From a virus, in the IMG/VR virus record IMGVR_UViG_3300033183_000108, positions 1-33,347 of that record: 33,347 nt of DNA, one strand, 5' to 3'. The position numbers and the translations under genes are program-made. The notes below the pieces were generated by a model. The model made no database searches, was not told the DNA's origin, and worked only from the letters and a program-made list of their open reading frames with translations. Of this stretch, positions 1,347-19,672 are shown piece by piece. The number at the start of each line of letters is the position of its first letter. The stretch's first letter is position 1.

Positions 1347-3476
1347 TTATCTAGATAAGAAGCCTTGGTCTTGATTGACAGGGGCGGCTTCAGGTCCTCT
1401 GTCACGTCCTAAATCAATAAAGCCAGCCTGTTCTTCGGCAGCTATACGACTAGCAGGTGTCATACCGAACGGGTCAGGTTCTGCCCGTGCAGCAGCAATA
1501 TCTCTTATGTCACTGTATCCTACTGGACCAAACTCAGATGCGCCAGCTACTGCGGCAAGAGCAGGAGAGCCTGTAGCGGCTTCTACTTCAGATACAGTTG
1601 AGGCAGCAGTTGCTGCAGTCAAGCCCAAGCCTAAAGGACCTAACGCCTTTTTAACAGGACCCGGCAACTTGTCAACAACCCCGTATAACAGGTCGTACAG
1701 ACCGTCTGCTTTTAGTTTCTCAGCAACGCTAGGCGAGACTGTGTCTGTCAGAGTTTCTTTAGGGGATACTTTCTTTTTTGCAGGTGGTAATACTTCTTCG
1801 GCTTGCTGCTGCAGTTCAGAGGCTTTAGAAATCAAATCCTCCAGCCTGTTTATTCTTTTTGTGAGAGAGTCAGAAGTAGTATTGATTGTACTTTCTACAC
1901 GTCCCTCTGCAGTGCGAGTGAGAGTTTCTGCAAGCTGCTGTTCTTGAGGCACATCTGTAGTCAGCGGGGTCACGGTAGAAGGTTTGAATTTATCAGATGA
2001 AAACCCATACCCCTCTTCACCGAACACAAGCTGGGGATTATCAAAACCAATAGATTCTAGATACAGCGAGCTAAAAAGTTCTTGTGACTTTTGCAAACCT
2101 GACAGACTTGCTCGGCGAGTTCGCTCTACTTTATAGTGCTTAAGTCCTACGTCATTGCCTGATGAGTGACCTAGTACCTTATTAGCTGCGCCGGGACCTT
2201 CTTCCTCATCAAGAATATCAAATATGTTTTTTCGTAAATCTCGTATGCTAAAGGGAACAGCCTCTCCCTTTTTTAAGTCAAATATTTCTAGACCTAATGC
2301 GTCCATATTGCGGCGCATAACAGGATTTATCTTGTCCCGATAAAAAGACTCTCCTGACTTACCTGTTTTTGAAAACAGCGTAGTGCGCCCACCTGCTTCT
2401 GCATCTGCTGCTAAATCTGCAAGTATGCCATGCACAACCTCTCCTAGGTCGTAGTTTATTCTCTCACCCTTATTACTAAGAGCATATATCTTTTGAATAG
2501 AAGGGTCGAATGAACCATAATCTGCACCCTTAATAGCTTTACCTAGCTGAAGATTTACGATGTCAGGGTTGCGAAGACCTGTCAGCATCTTTATAAGAAA
2601 AAACGCTCTAGCTTCTTTATCAGGTATCTGACGAGCCGTAGCGTCTACAGCTTTATTAAAACTATCAAAGTCAGGAAGTTCTAGCTTTCTAGCCTGTCTT
2701 GTTAAACGAATACCAAACTCTTTATTAGTATTCCGATTAGTTTTTTCCCAGTTAGCAAGAACGTTTACTTCGTCCACACCTGTGCCGGAAGTTATCAACG
2801 TTTTTACGCGAGATGCAAACGCACCCGCTGCCGCAGAAACACCTTTGTATCTTTCTCCAGTAGCCCACTTATGTAGACGCTCAATTCCTGCTTCTGAATT
2901 AAGTTCAGAGAGGGGTGTGTCACTAGGGAATCCAGCAGCATCAAGTTCCTTTAAGGCTCGTTCCATCGAGGATATAGAATCCGCAGAACGATTACCTTCT
3001 AGGTAGCTTTCAAATGCTTCTTGTATTGTTTTTCCTGCCACGGACTTTCCTTTTGCTGCTACTGGCTCGTTGGCTGCTTCTAAGGGCTTTCCTGCTACTA
3101 TATTTTTAGAAGCAGAAGCACCCTTTTCCTGCATCTCCATCGTGCTGCCAAACTTCTTTTCATAGGCTTTGAAGCTAGCATCATCGAATAATTCAGGTGC
3201 ATTAAGTTTGATAGAGGATGCTATACTAAACTTCGCATTTTCATCAGCTAAAGGAAAACCTGAATAATCTAAAAAAGCTATAGCTTGTTCAACAGTTAAC
3301 TTTTTGGGTGTTTTTACTTTTCCTTGACCGGGCTTGCCACCAAACGCTTCAAAAAGAAACTCTTCTTCTTCTGGAATAAAAGGTATATCCATATACTGGC
3401 GAAAAGCAAGAGTGGCATCCTTAACCATCTTTTCGGCACTGCTTGCATTTTTTCCAATGTTGGTTATTTCTGCCAT
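1347..3476 (-). CDS. Tyrosine-recombinase-domain protein in the packaging operon
   Basis: A 709-aa protein starting at the ATG directly after the large-terminase stop. Residues ~150-230 look like a SAM-like core-binding domain. Residues ~255-455 hold a tyrosine-recombinase catalytic core: R302 (MLTGLRNPDI), K336 (SNKGER, beta-hairpin Lys), R415 in SIRDLRKN, H437 (LGHSSG) and Y448 (LKHYKV). The HxxR box reads RxxR (R412-R415), so the usual first His is replaced. The ~130-aa N-terminal and ~250-aa C-terminal extensions are unusual for an integrase. The C-terminal one has a coiled coil (~525-560), a Pro/Lys stretch and an Ala/Gly-rich hydrophobic segment. Its place between terminase and portal suggests either an integrase or resolvase made late, or a recombinase fold reused in packaging or the virion. 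The fold call is firm; the activity is not. Confidence 0.75.
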   Translation of the reverse strand: MAEITNIGKNASSAEKMVKDATLAFRQYMDIPFIPEEEEFLFEAFGGKPGQGKVKTPKKLTVEQAIAFLDYSGFPLADENAKFSIASSIKLNAPELFDDASFKAYEKKFGSTMEMQEKGASASKNIVAGKPLEAANEPVAAKGKSVAGKTIQEAFESYLEGNRSADSISSMERALKELDAAGFPSDTPLSELNSEAGIERLHKWATGERYKGVSAAAGAFASRVKTLITSGTGVDEVNVLANWEKTNRNTNKEFGIRLTRQARKLELPDFDSFNKAVDATARQIPDKEARAFFLIKMLTGLRNPDIVNLQLGKAIKGADYGSFDPSIQKIYALSNKGERINYDLGEVVHGILADLAADAEAGGRTTLFSKTGKSGESFYRDKINPVMRRNMDALGLEIFDLKKGEAVPFSIRDLRKNIFDILDEEEGPGAANKVLGHSSGNDVGLKHYKVERTRRASLSGLQKSQELFSSLYLESIGFDNPQLVFGEEGYGFSSDKFKPSTVTPLTTDVPQEQQLAETLTRTAEGRVESTINTTSDSLTKRINRLEDLISKASELQQQAEEVLPPAKKKVSPKETLTDTVSPSVAEKLKADGLYDLLYGVVDKLPGPVKKALGPLGLGLTAATAASTVSEVEAATGSPALAAVAGASEFGPVGYSDIRDIAAARAEPDPFGMTPASRIAAEEQAGFIDLGRDRGPEAAPVNQDQGFLSR

Positions 3477-5180
3477 CTAGTATCCGAATGTCCCGTCAAA
3501 AGGTTGGAACGCCTGTTCTTTTATGCCTTGCAATGATTTATGGATTGATGTATAACCAGAGGTGCGAGTCATAACCATATAACGGAGTGCATCGTATGCG
3601 TGGTCTTCAGCCTTGGTATCTACATCTTCACTGTTTGTTTTGGACAGGGGTATCCCTGACATTTGTGCAATGGTGTGTTTACAAGTTGAGAAAATGCGTA
3701 AACGTGGTTCGTTGGTGTGAGGGTCTTCTGCCAATCTTCTGTGCAGTTCCATCTTTCCATGAAGCCTGTTACGGTCAGACGGTGTCCAACGCACACCTGC
3801 CCTCATCATGGTTTCTGCAATAGATGGTCCGAAGCCTGTTTTGTTCCAGCACGAAGCATCCAGCACGTTATAGTGGGGAAGAGGGTCTAGTTCTTCCATT
3901 TCTAGTATTTTATCAGCTAACTGGTCTGCTGTCAAGTGTTTAGCATACAACTCTCTGTATACCCAGATATTGTCATCCCAGTCGATTGCACCCCACAGGA
4001 CACAAGAGGGAGAAGCGTAGCCGTAGTCAGCAGCACGGATGCGAGGCCAGTTGGTCGGCATCTCGAACGGTTCGACCACATGCTTGATGCGAGAGAACTC
4101 TGGAAAGGCTGCACCTTCCGCCACGTCCCAGTCACCCTCTAGGAGTCTGCGTCTTTCTACGTCTGGCAACGAACGAAGCATGGCCTCGTATTGCCCATCC
4201 GCCATTAGATAAGGGTTGTCGGTTAGACGTGCGGGTACGAACTTGCGGTAGAAGAGCGGCTGTCCCGCTTTTTCTGGATGTGTGTCAGGCCAAAGAAACG
4301 CCTTGCCCGTCTCCGGGTCGTATGCCGGAAAAGCCTTATTCGCCTCGTGCTTGTCGATATACATTTTCTTAACCCACCAGCCACCAACACCACCGGGGTT
4401 GGCAGTACATCGCATACAGAGGTTCTTTTGTAATTCGGGGTCTGTTGAGCGTAAACGTGACCTAAGATAATCCCAAACATAGCTACTCGGATATTGTGTA
4501 ATTTCATCGACACCTATCCAGTTGAAAGCCTGACCTTGGAAACGGGTCACATCTTTATCTCTATCTAAATAGGTAAACCACATGGTCGCCCCCGAAGGAA
4601 AGACCCATGTGGATTTTGATTCCCGATAAACTGCGCCGGGAAACGCTTTAGGATATAACTGCTTTGACTTGTCTATAAGTTCGGTCAGTTCATCCAGAGT
4701 ACGCCTAAGAAGAAGCCCACGATGATTAGGATTATGGCAGTAGCGTAGTGGGTCTGCAAGAAGTGCAAAACTTTTTCCGCCTCCTGCTGCACCGCCATAC
4801 AGTACGTCTTGCTCGGGAGCAGACAGGAACTCTTCTTGAGGGCCTTCATTAGGTTTGAATATAACTGGTGTATCATCGATTATCTCCTGCACGGTTGCTG
4901 GGAGATTGGCAAGGTCATCACCATCTACGACCCGCGAACCCGTGCCGTTAAGCGCGGTTTCCACCTTCTTCGCACTTTTCTTTAACTTACGTGCGTAGCT
5001 GGCTTTGTCCTGCGCTTTCTTCTGATGTTTTTCTTTTGCCTTCTCGGCTTTTCGAACTCGTGCTTGTAACGCACGTCTCGCTCGTTCGGCTCGAGATAGG
5101 TTGTAAATAGCCTTGGGGGCGTTAGGGTCTTTTTTAGGACGACCTCTACCCCGCTTTTTTTTTTTTTTTTCTTCAGACAT
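3477..5180 (-). CDS. terL: Terminase large subunit (packaging ATPase-nuclease)
   Basis: A 567-aa motor that threads DNA into the prohead and cuts it. Walker A is GGAAGGGKS (about residues 129-137) and Walker B is WIGVDE (D224, E225). The RNase H-like nuclease has acidic candidates D384 (AADYGY), D440 (NVLDAS) and the C-terminal AEDHAYDALRYM around D525-D529. The first ~80 residues are an extra, very basic, helical extension with KRGRGRPKK, which matches an AT-hook core (GRP flanked by basic residues). Codons 4-9 lie in an uninterrupted run of 16 A on the coding strand (5155-5170). The start is 1 nt after the preceding stop with only a weak purine-rich ribosome site. It is part of the leftward late operon. 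Confidence 0.95.
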   Translation of the reverse strand: MSEEKKKKKRGRGRPKKDPNAPKAIYNLSRAERARRALQARVRKAEKAKEKHQKKAQDKASYARKLKKSAKKVETALNGTGSRVVDGDDLANLPATVQEIIDDTPVIFKPNEGPQEEFLSAPEQDVLYGGAAGGGKSFALLADPLRYCHNPNHRGLLLRRTLDELTELIDKSKQLYPKAFPGAVYRESKSTWVFPSGATMWFTYLDRDKDVTRFQGQAFNWIGVDEITQYPSSYVWDYLRSRLRSTDPELQKNLCMRCTANPGGVGGWWVKKMYIDKHEANKAFPAYDPETGKAFLWPDTHPEKAGQPLFYRKFVPARLTDNPYLMADGQYEAMLRSLPDVERRRLLEGDWDVAEGAAFPEFSRIKHVVEPFEMPTNWPRIRAADYGYASPSCVLWGAIDWDDNIWVYRELYAKHLTADQLADKILEMEELDPLPHYNVLDASCWNKTGFGPSIAETMMRAGVRWTPSDRNRLHGKMELHRRLAEDPHTNEPRLRIFSTCKHTIAQMSGIPLSKTNSEDVDTKAEDHAYDALRYMVMTRTSGYTSIHKSLQGIKEQAFQPFDGTFGY

Positions 5181-6944: not shown

Positions 6945-6973
6945 AAAAAAAAGCCCCAGCATATAGCCGGGGC
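6945..6973 (-). terminator. Intrinsic terminator of the leftward accessory genes
   Basis: On the minus strand, an 8-bp stem (GCCCCGGC / GCTGGGGC, one G-U) with a short AT-rich loop is followed by eight T (6945-6952 read as A on +). It would end transcription arriving from the DUF932 and winged-helix genes. Confidence 0.85.
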
Positions 6974-6995
6974 AAGTTTCGCGGGATAGTTCGCG

Positions 6996-7043
6996 CTAGT
7001 CCAGAATAATCCAGATAGTTATTATTATTGTTAACAGTTCCAT
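6996..7043 (-). CDS. Possible 15-aa hydrophobic peptide
   Basis: The ATG at 7043 overlaps the TAA of the preceding gene (TAATG). The frame reads MELLTIIITIWIILD before a TAG, almost entirely hydrophobic, and ends ~20 nt before the operon terminator. An AGG lies upstream. It could be a leaderless membrane peptide or chance. Too short to be trusted without conservation. Confidence 0.2.
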   Translation of the reverse strand: MELLTIIITIWIILD

Positions 7044-7986: not shown

Positions 7987-8964
7987 TTAAGCGGCAACCC
8001 TTTCCAGTTCCTGCCAGCCTTCACTGGTTAGCACATCCCGCACCCGGTCATTGCGCTTGCGGGTCACGTCGTGGGATTTCTGCGTCTTTTTAGCCCGGGG
8101 CGTTTCAAGGGTATGGGTTGCCCAGTGGGTAAGCGCATTGTAACCCGCCCAAAGGGTCTCGCCCAGTTCTTCGGTCTCTTCCCGATACTGGTACAGCAGA
8201 TAATCTAGCAGATTTTTATTGATTGGCTCGGCATCGTCTTTATCGCTTGGCCTTGCCGGACGCTGGCAGATAGTGCCTTCAAGGATATCCCGGAATTGCC
8301 GTTCGGTTAACCCAGTTGCCGCCCAGCTATCCATCAATTCGCGCTGGTTTGTAAACATATCCAGAGACAGCATCGCCTTACCTGTTAAGGCCGTTGTATC
8401 TAGATTGCGGGTATGTTTCTTTTTCTGGTGATATGCCTTCTGCCCCCCAAAAACTAAGGTATTGCGGCAGAGGTCACGATAAGCCCCGCTGAATACCTGA
8501 AAAGACCATGACATATCGATAGAGTTGAAAACATCCAAACGCGGAACAACGCTATCAGAACCCGCCCGGCTCTTCACGTCTGCTTTTCTATCCGGAAAAT
8601 AGATTGTTCGGTGGGCTTTCTTCCCCGCCTCGAATAGCCTATCGACTATCTCGACACGTTCCCCGGCAAGCTGACTATCGGCAAGCTGGCGGGATTGCGC
8701 GGCCAGCATATCTTGATGAGGGACAAGCTGGTATGATTTAGCGATAGGCCGCATATCAACAAGCTGACCAGTTGCGCGGTTAAAGATAGCATCATAGCCG
8801 TTCATCGCTTTGGGTAGGCCGTCAATATCGGCAAGGGTCGGGACACGTTCGAAAACAGCCCTATCAGTGAACAAAGATAAATCGTTCGGGTCGGTATGTT
8901 TGTATTCCAGCCCGTCCCTGATTTCGGTGACTGGCTGGTTTGTTACAGTTAAATCTAGTGGCAT
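7987..8964 (-). CDS. DUF932 family phage/plasmid protein
   Basis: A 325-aa protein starting at 8964 (MPLDLTVTNQPV) with AAGGGG 8 nt upstream. The frame is open further but without a ribosome site. Family features are an N-terminal AIFNRATGQLVDMRPIAKSY region, a central DVFNSIDMSWSFQVFSGAYR followed by DLCRNTLVFGG, and a C-terminal basic segment (TPRAKKTQKSHDVTRKRNDR). DUF932 proteins are common on phages and plasmids. As far as I know no biochemical activity is established, although DNA metabolism or protection roles are often proposed. It is preceded by a terminator and a weak promoter, so it seems to be its own transcription unit. Confidence 0.85.
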   Translation of the reverse strand: MPLDLTVTNQPVTEIRDGLEYKHTDPNDLSLFTDRAVFERVPTLADIDGLPKAMNGYDAIFNRATGQLVDMRPIAKSYQLVPHQDMLAAQSRQLADSQLAGERVEIVDRLFEAGKKAHRTIYFPDRKADVKSRAGSDSVVPRLDVFNSIDMSWSFQVFSGAYRDLCRNTLVFGGQKAYHQKKKHTRNLDTTALTGKAMLSLDMFTNQRELMDSWAATGLTERQFRDILEGTICQRPARPSDKDDAEPINKNLLDYLLYQYREETEELGETLWAGYNALTHWATHTLETPRAKKTQKSHDVTRKRNDRVRDVLTSEGWQELERVAA

Positions 8965-9014
8965 AATAAAGCCCCTTCCATTTGGTTGATTGATACGGGT
9001 CACCCCGCCCTTGA

Positions 9015-9045
9015 ATCTTAACCCATATTTTATGCAGATTGTCAA
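9015..9045 (-). promoter_or_regulatory. Possible promoter for the DUF932 gene
   Basis: On the minus strand a perfect TTGACA (9040-9045) follows directly on the T-run of the upstream terminator. The best -10 is TAAGAT (9015-9020) with a long 19-bp spacer. The position is attractive, just after a terminator and ~50 nt before the start, but the -10 is weak. Confidence 0.4.
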
Positions 9046-9080
9046 ATAAAAAATGGGGACGCTGCCGAAACAACGCCCCC
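9046..9080 (-). terminator. Intrinsic terminator between Gp88 and DUF932 genes
   Basis: On the minus strand a 10-bp stem, GGGGGCGTTG / CAGCGTCCCC with two G-U pairs and a TTTCGG loop, is followed by ATTTTTTATT. It would end leftward transcription coming from the early gene cluster, separating that cluster from the DUF932 unit. Confidence 0.85.
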
Positions 9081-9178
9081 AGCAACCCCGCCCCCAAATC
9101 TCGCGGATTGCTCGATATATCCAGACCAGCAACGGGCAAAGGAAACGAAACCCCGCGCTTGTGATATATCCCCAATTC

Positions 9179-9224
9179 TTTAGCGTGGCCTATTTGTCAT
9201 GGTTTAGCGTGGCCTATTTGTCAT
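9179..9224. repeat. Tandem 22-bp repeat after the Gp88 gene
   Basis: Two identical copies of a 22-mer (9179-9200, 9203-9224), sequence on + TTTAGCGTGGCCTATTTGTC plus AT, repeat with a 24-bp period. On the minus strand each copy reads ATGACAAATAGGCCACGCTAA, a 6-codon mini-ORF (MTNRPR, stop). The first ATG overlaps the Gp88 stop (TGATG). Related copies lie at 10091-10155. The unit length is iteron- or operator-like. Confidence 0.85.
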
Positions 9225-9910
9225 CAGTGGGTCAAAAAGATTACTTGCTGTTCCGGTTGATGCCAGCATAGCGCACAATTAGCGCAATTGCTAGCCGCCC
9301 CAGTTTGTTCTGGACAAACAAACGACTGGCCTTTGATTGGCTCGGCACGTTCGCGGGACATAGCCGCAAGCTGGATATCTGCCGCATCAGAAAAACGGAC
9401 AGACCAGCGCATACCAAACCGCTCACGATTAAATAAAAGAGCCTTGCCGATATCGCTGGCTGGTTTTCTGCCAGTATAGCCCCAGACCGCCAGATTGTCA
9501 TACAGGGTCATCAGTTTATGCCATAGCCGGACATATTGCACCGAATAGAAATCACCCAGAACATGAAGCCGGATTATAACGCCTTTATAAGTGGCGCAAA
9601 GTTCGCGCACCTCTTTTTCTAGTTTGTTTTCCAGTTCCGCGCCATGCTGGAAACGGTGGGCAAAGGCCATATTATTACCATAGCAATCATCCCAATGATA
9701 GCAATCGCGGGGACAGGTCGCCCGCTCTTCTAGCGTCAAGGTAAAGATAACATATCCGGCAAACTTGCCCTTTTTAACTACGGGCAATTTTCCCTTGTCG
9801 GCTATCTTGGCATTTTTAGACTGCTTTAATACGTTTACGCTATCTTGAACAACACGCCTAGCCTTTGGGTACATGGTAACGGCTGGCTTATTTATATCTG
9901 CTTTTTTCAT
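9224..9910 (-). CDS. Gp88-family cysteine-rich protein
   Basis: A 228-aa protein starting at 9910 (MKKADINKPAVTMYPKARRV), with AGGA upstream. It matches the phage gene product 88 family as I remember it: TLEERATCPRDCYHWDDCYG with C66, C70 and C76, a central VIIRLHVLGDFYSVQYVRLW region, AVWGYTGR, and a C-terminal cysteine cluster (C-x10-C-x2-C-x2-C). The Cys/His arrangement suggests a metal or Fe-S site. The family's activity is not known to me. It lies between two TGACAAAT repeat clusters, which suggests it may have entered as a block. Confidence 0.8.
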   Translation of the reverse strand: MKKADINKPAVTMYPKARRVVQDSVNVLKQSKNAKIADKGKLPVVKKGKFAGYVIFTLTLEERATCPRDCYHWDDCYGNNMAFAHRFQHGAELENKLEKEVRELCATYKGVIIRLHVLGDFYSVQYVRLWHKLMTLYDNLAVWGYTGRKPASDIGKALLFNRERFGMRWSVRFSDAADIQLAAMSRERAEPIKGQSFVCPEQTGAASNCANCALCWHQPEQQVIFLTH

Positions 9911-9967
9911 CGGTTGCGTTTCCTTTTCTGTTGATAAGATAACGCCTACCAAATAAACGCCAGATTG

Positions 9968-15097: not shown

Positions 15098-15659
15098 CGT
15101 AGAAACAACCCACAAGGAAAAAGCCAACGGCTCATCTACACCCCTGCCGTACTTTGGCAACACGCTAGTATCTGTGGGGTATAAATGGCTGGGCTTGGAT
15201 AAGGTACATTACCTTTGTTTCGACCACAGTACTCAGCAACCTAGCAACGATGGTTTCAACATCTTCCAAGATGCCCTGACCCTTGCTGACGTTGTCGTAG
15301 GTCACAACATCAAGTTCGACCTGTCGTGGATACGCGAGTGCAACTTTAAGTACGAGGGACACGTATATGATACGATGGTTGCGGAATATATTTTGGCGAA
15401 GGCCAGACGTTGGCCTCTCAACCTTGCTGCTGTTGCAGGGAAGTATGGTGGAGTGCAAAAGGAGAAAGACCTTATCACGCCCTACTTCAAGGAAGGCAAA
15501 ACATTCTTTGACATCCCGTGGGATACGATAGTAGAATATGGCATTGCCGATGTGATTGCTACCGAACAGGTGGCAACCGCCCAACTCAAAGCCTTTGGCA
15601 CAACATTTGAGGAATTGTTTGATGACAAATCTAATACCGACGCTTCGTCTGTCGCTTGA
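15078..15659 (+). CDS. 3'-5' proofreading exonuclease, separate from polymerase
   Basis: A 193-aa DEDDy exonuclease domain of the family A polymerase type: ExoI FDVETT (D and E near residues 6-9), ExoII GHNIKFDLSW, and ExoIII YGIADV (Tyr and Asp four apart). In T7 and HMO-2011-type polymerases, as I recall, this domain is the N-terminus of one long polymerase. Here the frame ends at a TGA (15657-15659) and the polymerase continues one frame over. The end overlaps the polymerase gene by 38 nt, so the two are translationally coupled and probably assemble. No other fault is visible. Confidence 0.9.
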   Translation: MRVLTFDVETTHKEKANGSSTPLPYFGNTLVSVGYKWLGLDKVHYLCFDHSTQQPSNDGFNIFQDALTLADVVVGHNIKFDLSWIRECNFKYEGHVYDTMVAEYILAKARRWPLNLAAVAGKYGGVQKEKDLITPYFKEGKTFFDIPWDTIVEYGIADVIATEQVATAQLKAFGTTFEELFDDKSNTDASSVA

Positions 15660-17157
15660 AATGACGAACGTTCTGGCTCATATAGAACAGAACGGCATCA
15701 AGATAAACAAGACAACCCTAGCTGAGATTCGTGAAGAATACGAACAGGAACTATTCCAGCTAGAACGCAGACTAAACGAACTAGCCGCGAACGCGATGGG
15801 CGATACCCCCGTCAATCTCGACAGTCCAGACGACAGGTCTATGCTGATGTACTCGTGCAAGGTTGTTGACAAGAAGCGTTGGGCTGTCCTGTTCAACTTA
15901 GGACACGAGATGCGTGGCGCAACTAGAAAGCCTAAGATGCGTAAGCGTATGTCCCGCGGAGAGTTCAAGGGATATGTGCTGCGGGAAACTGACGTGGTCT
16001 ACAAGACTGTGGGTTCGCAATGTCAAGACTGCGGTGGCAAGGGCAGGTACAATCCTCTGCGTAAGGATGGTTCGATGGGTAAGGCTGTTCGCATTTGTAA
16101 GACGTGTGACGGTAAGGGTGTTGTATATACAAATACTAGCGAGGTTGCTGGGTTCAAGATGGTTCCCCGTGATGCGTTCGATGTTGCCGCTGGTGGTTTC
16201 AAGACAGATAAAGAAACCCTAGAAGATATGTCGCTATCCCTGAGAGGGGATGCTAGAGAGTTCGCACAGTCCTATATTCGATACTCTGCCCTGCGAACCT
16301 ATCTCCGCTCGTTTGTTGAGGGCATGGAGAACAACATGGACGGCAACGGCTTCATCCACACAGAGTTCATGCAGTGCGTGACGGCAACAGGCCGATTGTC
16401 TTCCCGTAATCCAAACTTCCAGAATATGCCCCGTGGTTCTACCTTTGCTATCCGCAGGGCAGTAGAGAGTAGGTTCGAGGGTGGCTCTATCCTAGAAGGC
16501 GACTACAGCCAGCTAGAGTTCAGGGTTGCTGGCTTCCTAGCTAACGATGAGATGGTCTTGACGGACGTAGAAGCTGGTACGGATGTGCATAGCTATACTG
16601 CCAGCGTTATTGGCTGTACAAGACAGGAAGCAAAAGCCCACACCTTCAAGCCGCTATATGGCGGGGTTAGCGGGACGGAAGACCAGCAACGCTACTACCG
16701 TGCCTTCAAGGATAAGTATCGTGGCGTTACGGAATGGCATAAGGTTCTGCAGAAGGATGCGGTAACCAAGAAGGAGATTACCCTGCCGTCTGGTAGACAG
16801 TATGCCTTCCCCGATGCCAAGTGGACTGAGTGGGGTACGGCTACCAACCGTACAGCTATCTGTAACTACCCTGTTCAAGGATTTGCCACGGCTGACCTGC
16901 TGCCGATGGCTCTAGTAAAATTGCACCAAGACATGGCTGGGATGCAGTCTGTTATCTGCAACACAGTACACGATTCCATTGTGATTGACGTGTATCCGGG
17001 TGAAGAAGAGCAGTGTATTCAGGTTATGTCGAAGGCAATGTTGTGTCTGCCGCAGGAGACAAAGCGCAGATATAACAAGGAATATACCATGCCAGTGGGT
17101 ATAGAATTAAAAATGGGAAAAAACTGGCTTGACTTAGAAGCAGTGTTTGAGGTATAA
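15622..17157 (+). CDS. Family A DNA polymerase with DnaJ-type zinc motif
   Basis: A 511-aa polymerase lacking its own exonuclease. The ATG at 15622 has an excellent GAGGA 8 nt upstream, and the first residues (MTNLIPTLRLSLEM) already match the family, so I prefer it to 15556 or 15661. Before the palm, CQDCGGKG (C134, C137) and CKTCDGKG (C159, C162) form a half DnaJ zinc centre. Motif A DYSQLEFR starts at D294. Motif B RQEAKAHTFKPLYG (R334, K338, F342, Y346) has Phe where E. coli Pol I has Phe762. Motif C VHDS has D451. It replicates the genome with the helicase-primase. The zinc element sits where T7 carries its thioredoxin-binding insert, roughly, so it may be a processivity contact. Confidence 0.93.
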   Translation: MTNLIPTLRLSLEMTNVLAHIEQNGIKINKTTLAEIREEYEQELFQLERRLNELAANAMGDTPVNLDSPDDRSMLMYSCKVVDKKRWAVLFNLGHEMRGATRKPKMRKRMSRGEFKGYVLRETDVVYKTVGSQCQDCGGKGRYNPLRKDGSMGKAVRICKTCDGKGVVYTNTSEVAGFKMVPRDAFDVAAGGFKTDKETLEDMSLSLRGDAREFAQSYIRYSALRTYLRSFVEGMENNMDGNGFIHTEFMQCVTATGRLSSRNPNFQNMPRGSTFAIRRAVESRFEGGSILEGDYSQLEFRVAGFLANDEMVLTDVEAGTDVHSYTASVIGCTRQEAKAHTFKPLYGGVSGTEDQQRYYRAFKDKYRGVTEWHKVLQKDAVTKKEITLPSGRQYAFPDAKWTEWGTATNRTAICNYPVQGFATADLLPMALVKLHQDMAGMQSVICNTVHDSIVIDVYPGEEEQCIQVMSKAMLCLPQETKRRYNKEYTMPVGIELKMGKNWLDLEAVFEV

Positions 17158-18915: not shown

Positions 18916-19310
18916 TGCCCTTGTTATACACAGAGACATATCCGAGGAAGTTGCTGGGGATGAACCCAGCCCTGCGGTGTGTCTATGTGGAATCACATGA
19001 GAAGAGGGGCGGTGACCCAGCAACCGTGCATGTTCGCGGCTTGGAAAACTCTCTGCCCCTCACCCTTCGTAATAATTATACCGACAGTGGTTACCTAGTT
19101 GCAGATACAGAAGCTAGGGACATCGTGCTTATAGAAGAGCAATTTCAACAAATCAATCACCACCTGAGGATGGGCGTTACTGTATGTCTACCGACAATGC
19201 TGTTAAGCGAAGAACTAAACTACCTAGAAAAGCATACACCAAAAGTAGAACAGTATCTATTAAAGCGGCTAAGTCTGGCAAAGACTGCGTATCCCCTGCT
19301 AGAATTATGA
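18915..19310 (+). CDS. Hypothetical protein between two nucleases
   Basis: A 131-aa protein starting at the ATG overlapping the nuclease stop (MPLLYTETYPRKLLGMNPAL...). Beta-rich middle (VHVRGLENSLPLTLRNNYTD, SGYLVADTEARDIVLIEEQF) and a helical C-terminus (EELNYLEKHTPKVEQYLLKR). No motif recognised. It ends with an ATGA overlap onto the endonuclease I gene. Steady position in the recombination block suggests DNA metabolism. Confidence 0.65.
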   Translation: MPLLYTETYPRKLLGMNPALRCVYVESHEKRGGDPATVHVRGLENSLPLTLRNNYTDSGYLVADTEARDIVLIEEQFQQINHHLRMGVTVCLPTMLLSEELNYLEKHTPKVEQYLLKRLSLAKTAYPLLEL

Positions 19311-19672
19311 GAAATACAAAATATCGGTCTATGTTCGAAATCAACATAGCCAAGTCTCTTGCAGAAAAAAACATCTCGTTTGAATACGAAACAAAGAAGC
19401 TGACGTATATACCAAAGCCCCGTAATTATACGCCAGACTTTTACATCCCACATAAAGATTTGTACATAGAAGCGAAAGGCCACCTAGATAAGGGTGACCG
19501 TGTCAAGATGATACTGATTAAACAGCAGTACCCAGACCTAGATATCAGGTTCGTTTTCCTAAATGCGAACAACAAGATTTATCGAGGCAGTAAAACCACC
19601 TATGCCATGTGGGCAACCAAGCATGGTTTCGAGTGGGCAGAGAAAGCTATACCTGAGGAGTGGTTAAAATGA
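19307..19672 (+). CDS. T7-type endonuclease I (Holliday junction resolvase)
   Basis: 121 aa from the ATG at 19307. The T7 gp3 signature is clear: RSMFE (E11), YTPDF (D44), YIEAKG (E55, K57), then QYPDLDIRFVF, KHGFEWA and IPEEW at the C-terminus. The family cuts branched DNA and helps break down host DNA and debranch concatemers. I prefer 19307 because it overlaps the previous stop by only 4 nt. An in-frame ATG at 19184 would add 41 very basic residues but needs a 127-nt overlap. T7 has about 10 more N-terminal residues than the short form, so the choice stays open. Confidence 0.9.
   Translation: MRNTKYRSMFEINIAKSLAEKNISFEYETKKLTYIPKPRNYTPDFYIPHKDLYIEAKGHLDKGDRVKMILIKQQYPDLDIRFVFLNANNKIYRGSKTTYAMWATKHGFEWAEKAIPEEWLK

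Follow-up and report, generated by a model that had tools for sequence, protein, structure and literature searches.

The gene between the large terminase (TerL) gene and the portal gene of an uncultured marine phage encodes a tyrosine recombinase, an identification that we consider secure, and a protein of this kind is universal at that position in the clade to which the phage belongs. The protein, which comprises 709 aa and carries N- and C-terminal extensions (positions 1347 to 3476, minus strand; family profile E = 4e-62), was found in a 33,347-nucleotide stretch of DNA, hereinafter the window (IMG/VR record IMGVR_UViG_3300033183_000108, positions 1 to 33,347). Judged from its residues and its predicted model, it looks like a catalytically competent enzyme. 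As to its role, we tentatively favor a recombinase that would be linked to packaging or to the virion in the manner of VLF-1 of the baculoviruses, a kind of role so far seen in insect viruses only.

Genomic context of the recombinase gene

The packaging genes of the window lie on the minus strand in the order TerL (3477 to 5180; phrog_979, E = 1.2e-62), recombinase, a conserved 74-aa open reading frame (ORF) without a family match (1113 to 1337), and a portal protein that is incomplete at the contig end (3 to 1109) and was recognized by tblastn matches to annotated portals of HMO-2011-type phages. TerL and the portal both match that group of marine podophages best, and the DNA polymerase ORF (15556 to 17157) contains the segments CQDCGGKG and CKTCDGKG, i.e., two CxxCxGxG motifs; a DNA polymerase with such partial DnaJ zinc motifs is the mark of the HMO-2011 type (PMC9038755). 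The recombinase gene begins with an ATG immediately past the TerL stop codon. In relatives, its start is often inside the TerL stop (CTGATGG) or a few nucleotides beyond, and the ORF after it starts within tens of nucleotides. Given this tight spacing, late coexpression is expected, and the recombinase would be made in the same operon as the terminase and the portal. An earlier reading of the window from its letters and ORFs (the sequence-only reading) had placed the gene in a packaging operon, and its position between TerL and the 74-aa ORF and portal agrees with this.

Neighbors upstream of the packaging genes are a DUF932 protein (7987 to 9132, minus strand) and a GP88-family protein (9224 to 9952, minus strand). 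Contig edges in the collected loci are concentrated 0 to 2 kb upstream of TerL (92 of the 135 edges within the flank; loci L017 to L095 and L112 to L191), which may reflect a terminus of the genome or hypervariability around terS.

Fold and family identity

On its own, the window protein matches integrase models weakly (PF00589, E = 0.27; phrog_1, E = 0.0036), and a search of the PDB with the single sequence retrieved nothing; hence, the identification rests on its relatives. A profile of the family recovered the XerC-like archaeal XerA (PDB code 4a8e; E = 3e-8) and the Tn1549 integrase (E = 5e-7), and PF00589 and phrog_1 were detected in 28 and 27, respectively, of 47 relatives. An AlphaFold2 (AF2) model of the core built with 47 sequences is of moderate confidence (pLDDT 69, pTM 0.61), and its top Foldseek matches in the PDB are lambda Int, XerA, Tn1549 Int, XerH, and Cre, with a probability of 1.00 for lambda Int, XerA, and Cre, E values from 5e-5, and TM scores of ~0.4 to 0.55. 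Structure prediction, fold search, and profile search, the first two of which had been proposed as checks on the sequence-only reading, thus all put tyrosine recombinases on top and agree with the invariance of R302, R415, and Y448 (see below). Among viral models, the matches are integrases plus Vlf-1 of Esparto virus (ranked fourth) and of Oryctes rhinoceros nudivirus; ordinary integrases score equally well as or better than Vlf-1. A protelomerase was considered and rejected: TelA, TelK, and ResT are absent from the profile matches and the listed core fold matches, and with the full-length model, protelomerases appear at ranks 37 to 42 only (E = 0.15 to 0.5).

The slot family shares with the tyrosine recombinase superfamily (PF00589; lambda Int, XerA/XerC/D, Cre, and Tn1549 Int) the core fold, the R-K-R-H/R-Y order of residues, and a helical, core-binding-like region that precedes the catalytic domain. 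No member has His in the HxxR box, and roughly half carry Arg at the His/Trp position; these traits set the family apart from the superfamily, as do its long tail, optional N-terminal module, and late packaging operon. The SSV1-type and pNOB8-type archaeal integrases likewise lack the HxxR His, and we are not aware of a long C-terminal tail or a packaging context in these enzymes.

Conservation of the active site

The five residues picked out by the sequence-only reading are all present in the window protein, namely, R302 (ArgI; 2571 to 2573), the catalytic K336 of the beta hairpin (2469 to 2471), R415 (ArgII; in the HxxR-equivalent box R412-D-L-R415, 2232 to 2243), H437 at the His/Trp position, in LGH (2166 to 2168), and the nucleophile Y448 in HYK (2133 to 2135), all on the minus strand. 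We aligned 101 distinct slot-protein cores automatically; 96 of these share <25% identity with the core of the window protein. R302 is found in 101 of 101, R415 in 99 of 99, Y448 in 97 of 97, and K336 in 88 of 98, and the position of H437 holds His in 53 and Arg in 44 of 97. The columns conserved in >93% of these cores are those of R302, F368, R415, and Y448, three of which are the named catalytic residues, a coincidence that exceeds chance. As that reading had noted for the RDLR of the window, the first residue of the HxxR box is not His; this holds for all 99 cores (0 of 99), in which S, Y, T, R, A, K, and others are seen instead.

The same columns (R302, F368, R415, and Y448) are invariant, and K336 is present in 45 of 47, in an alignment of 47 cores that had been trimmed by eye-chosen motifs. 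ArgI and Tyr belong to these motifs, and the trimming may have favored their columns; ArgII and Lys played no part in it. In the untrimmed full-length alignment, ArgI falls in a single column (47 of 47), and among 54 distinct proteins outside alignment building, trimmed at residue 430 only, R302 is conserved in 54 of 54, R415 in 52 of 52, and Y448 in 50 of 50. Inspected by eye, two proteins of no assigned type likewise show GLRG and a Tyr late in the sequence. Within the window's own type (W, the window protein, with L002, L143, L149/L150, and L167), the cores are 57 to 87% identical to that of W and all five residues are invariant. Nor do R302, H437, and Y448 vary freely, the pattern named in advance as speaking against a recombinase: the first and last are invariant, and position 437 is only His or Arg. 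The core is under purifying selection; against the nearest relative, L002, dN is 0.088 and dS is 1.40 (dN/dS, ~0.06, with dS near saturation).

These data bear on the option, also raised by the sequence-only reading, that the fold is inactive. According to this explanation, which we regard as highly unlikely, catalysis was lost and the protein binds DNA or serves structurally, like MrpR of SPbeta. It could draw on the missing HxxR His and the frequent Arg at the His/Trp position, and MrpR provides a precedent (PMC10516654). MrpR and SroF of the SPbeta-group phages resemble the slot protein as phage recombinase folds outside the integrase role, and SroF ranks 21st in the Foldseek PDB search of the core. 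MrpR, however, is inactive and no longer has ArgI or ArgII (PMC10516654), whereas ArgI, ArgII, and Tyr are invariant here, and an MrpR-like repressor, which needs the loss of both Arg residues, was accordingly rejected. The invariant active site together with the low dN/dS makes an inactive fold unlikely. The missing His is not disabling either, since active enzymes without it exist in the archaeal integrases of the SSV1 (KxxR) and pNOB8 (YxxR) types, with IntSSV1 being demonstrated to be active (PMC8371274).

Domain architecture

The window protein is divisible into three parts. An optional N-terminal module (residues 1 to 145; 3042 to 3476, minus strand) is modeled with a pLDDT of ~80 over residues 20 to 110. 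The recombinase core, supported by AF2 and Foldseek (residues 146 to 475; 2052 to 3041, minus strand), consists of the helical core-binding-like part followed by the catalytic domain. It is followed by a C-terminal tail (residues 476 to 709; 1350 to 2051, minus strand), which matches no family and for which no fold was predicted with confidence. A low-confidence model of the tail predicts a long, coiled-coil-like helix (511 to 562), Ala/Gly-rich helices (~594 to 647), and the end DQGFLSR; the full-length AF2 model (pLDDT 61, pTM 0.38) is too poor to interpret this part. The core is preceded by ~145 residues, and 261 residues follow Y448, in accord with the extensions of ~130 and ~250 residues estimated from the letters. 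The tail past the Tyr measures 208 to 354 residues in 100 of 100 relatives measured; it contains an Ala/Gly-rich stretch of moderate hydrophobicity and in most cases has GF or SF at its end.

The N-terminal module is common to core types G, B, C, and I, with variants in type A. In W, the module-core junction reads KGKSVA-GKTIQEAF, and the stand-alone protein of L002 begins MAGKTIQEAF; L004 and L022 have a common core and different N-terminal modules. Thus, N-terminal modules come and go on common cores, and core, N-terminal module, and C-terminal tail are exchanged separately.

The slot across relatives and the exchange of cores

Relatives were collected by a scan with the slot protein and two scans with TerL queries of IMG/VR, giving ~170 loci. 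Every complete TerL-portal slot found in ~150 related loci contains one protein of this kind (519 to 780 aa). Sorting of 47 cluster representatives yielded eight core types, and there are at least that many in the family, mostly <25% identical to each other. In cultured HMO-2011, the slot is 11 bp; in the pelagiphages HTVC115P and HTVC033P, it holds small ORFs; and in rhizobial phages, it holds unrelated genes, so that none of the cultured HMO-2011-type genomes inspected has a recombinase there. Neither the window's protein nor proteins of types A, B, and F had a match in the collection of cultured phages. The comparison of this slot in HMO-2011-type genomes, suggested at the outset, therefore came out positive for the uncultured clade, where a recombinase is always present, and negative for the cultured genomes inspected. 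A planctomycete MAG contig carries an HMO-2011-like phage whose TerL is split by an intein-like insert (L212:6747-9338); its portal directly follows TerL, without a recombinase.

Among TerL pairs 95 to 100% identical, only 23 of 69 have a core type in common. On a TerL tree of 71 tips, core type needs at least 41 changes, compared with a mean of 47 and a minimum of 41 for shuffled labels; the labels are sequence clusters that we defined, with weak assignments left out. Core type is therefore exchanged among near relatives close to randomly. This argues against a fixed housekeeping resolvase that would recombine a phage site inside the cell, converting dimers or concatemers to packageable genomes, and would not enter the virion. 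A resolvase is in our view unlikely: one site and one core would be expected of it, an endonuclease I that is a candidate junction resolvase is already present in the replication module (19184 to 19669, plus strand; PF05367, E = 1e-37), and cultured sister phages manage without a slot recombinase. Its synthesis together with the terminase and the fact that Xer proteins are its best sequence matches among solved structures would fit such a function. No loxP- or dif-like perfect inverted repeat (arms of ≥11 bp, spacer of 4 to 10) was found in nine records, which also counts against a resolvase, if weakly, as none is the chance expectation too.

The extreme exchange of cores among close relatives resembles that of other conflict systems, and it is conceivable, if quite improbable, that the protein is a weapon or exclusion factor directed against host or competitor DNA and diversified by an arms race. 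Its universal presence and strong purifying selection within type speak against this, as does the absence of any toxin or immunity partner that we could see.

Integration, attachment sites, and terminal repeats

Core swapping would be expected just as much if the protein were an integrase that changes its target. On this account, which we consider somewhat doubtful, the phages are temperate and the slot protein is a relocated integrase; new cores would give it new integration sites, as commonly happens with integrases. Several observations are in its favor. The slot gene is the only recombinase in the records, including a 54.9-kb one with a 91-bp end repeat (G001): a PF00589 search of records up to 56.8 kb gave no match outside the slot gene, and in several of them, there was no match at the threshold because the slot gene itself scores too low. 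In HMO-2011, whose slot is empty, a canonical int is located elsewhere, in a 302-aa frame (E = 1e-21). The nearest families are integrases, and some HMO-2011-type phages integrate (PMC9038755). The HMO-2011-type int is, like the slot protein, a tyrosine recombinase of the same phage group; it differs in lying upstream of the replication module (PMC9038755) and in being an ordinary integrase by model score.

Against an integrase stands, first, the phyletic distribution. TerL scans of ~85,000 GTDB species genomes recovered no close relative, versus >570 matches in viral contigs, and hosts are perhaps not represented; the first scan of genome contigs was empty, and the second found one distant TerL (52%) on a planctomycete MAG contig, without the slot gene. 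Second, there is no intergenic room for an attP beside the slot gene, although one may lie farther away; no same-codon conservation within core types inside the gene rises above shuffles, except at the 3' end in type A; and no att-like tRNA or tRNA-like remnants were detected. The lack of a nearby attP and of prophages in the genomes scanned argues against a plain integrase or ordinary integration cassette, although the phages may integrate into a host outside those genomes. Third, ordinary integrases end soon past the Tyr and are not known as late genes. Weak, sub-threshold small-RNA-like matches were seen in G001 (54476 to 54565; L196:14476-14565, plus strand; suhB/SorX, E of ~0.01) and in the window (6945 to 7042, minus strand; PrrF, E = 0.8), both upstream of the terminase genes.

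Inverted repeats are present at the 3' end of the slot gene (1359 to 1404, minus strand), namely, TGACAG/CTGTCA (1376 to 1404) and GAAGCC/GGCTTC (1359 to 1391). The terminal 60 nucleotides of the gene are enriched in stem-loops among relatives: an inverted repeat with arms of ≥6 nucleotides is present in 65% of 85 distinct loci, compared with 20% of codon-shuffled ends and 14 to 27% of the other gene ends tested. The arms vary by lineage yet stay complementary (GGCTTC/GAAGCC, GGTTTC/GAAACC, and GGATTGT/ACAATCC). We rejected the idea that the repeat is the recombinase's own type-specific site, as type B has several different repeats and one repeat occurs in both B and C; the repeat is not linked to core type.

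Proposed role and implications

The known functions of tyrosine recombinases in phages are those of integrases, resolvases, protelomerases, and, once inactivated, repressors. The packaging- or virion-linked enzyme that we tentatively prefer would work differently: the conserved tail, with the optional N-terminal module, would tie it to the packaging machine or the virion; the exchangeable core would pick the DNA site; and the recombinase would cut and rejoin DNA, either that of the phage during packaging or that of phage or host immediately following ejection, by analogy with VLF-1, the virion-associated recombinase of baculoviruses and nudiviruses. More specifically, it is possible that we are dealing with a phage counterpart of VLF-1, i.e., an active site-specific recombinase in the packaging or ejection apparatus of a large group of marine phages, in which conserved docking ends flank a site-recognizing core that is hot-swapped as a cassette. 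In baculoviruses, VLF-1 is part of the capsid and is required for packaging; bracoviruses require it to form virions and to excise DNA (PMC3649998, PMC11654684). The VLF-1 proteins of baculoviruses, nudiviruses, and bracoviruses are likewise recombinase-fold proteins made late; they belong to eukaryotic viruses, and their likeness to the slot protein is one of fold only.

A 2024 study regarded a packaging-linked recombinase role as unique to baculo-like viruses (PMC11654684). If our preferred reading is correct, a clade-wide, catalytically preserved, and swapped recombinase would link site-specific recombination to packaging or genome delivery in HMO-2011-type phages, reportedly a dominant and broadly distributed marine group (PMC9038755). 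Clades of this group without the usual int have been read as possibly lytic (PMC9038755), a reading that the slot recombinase calls into question.
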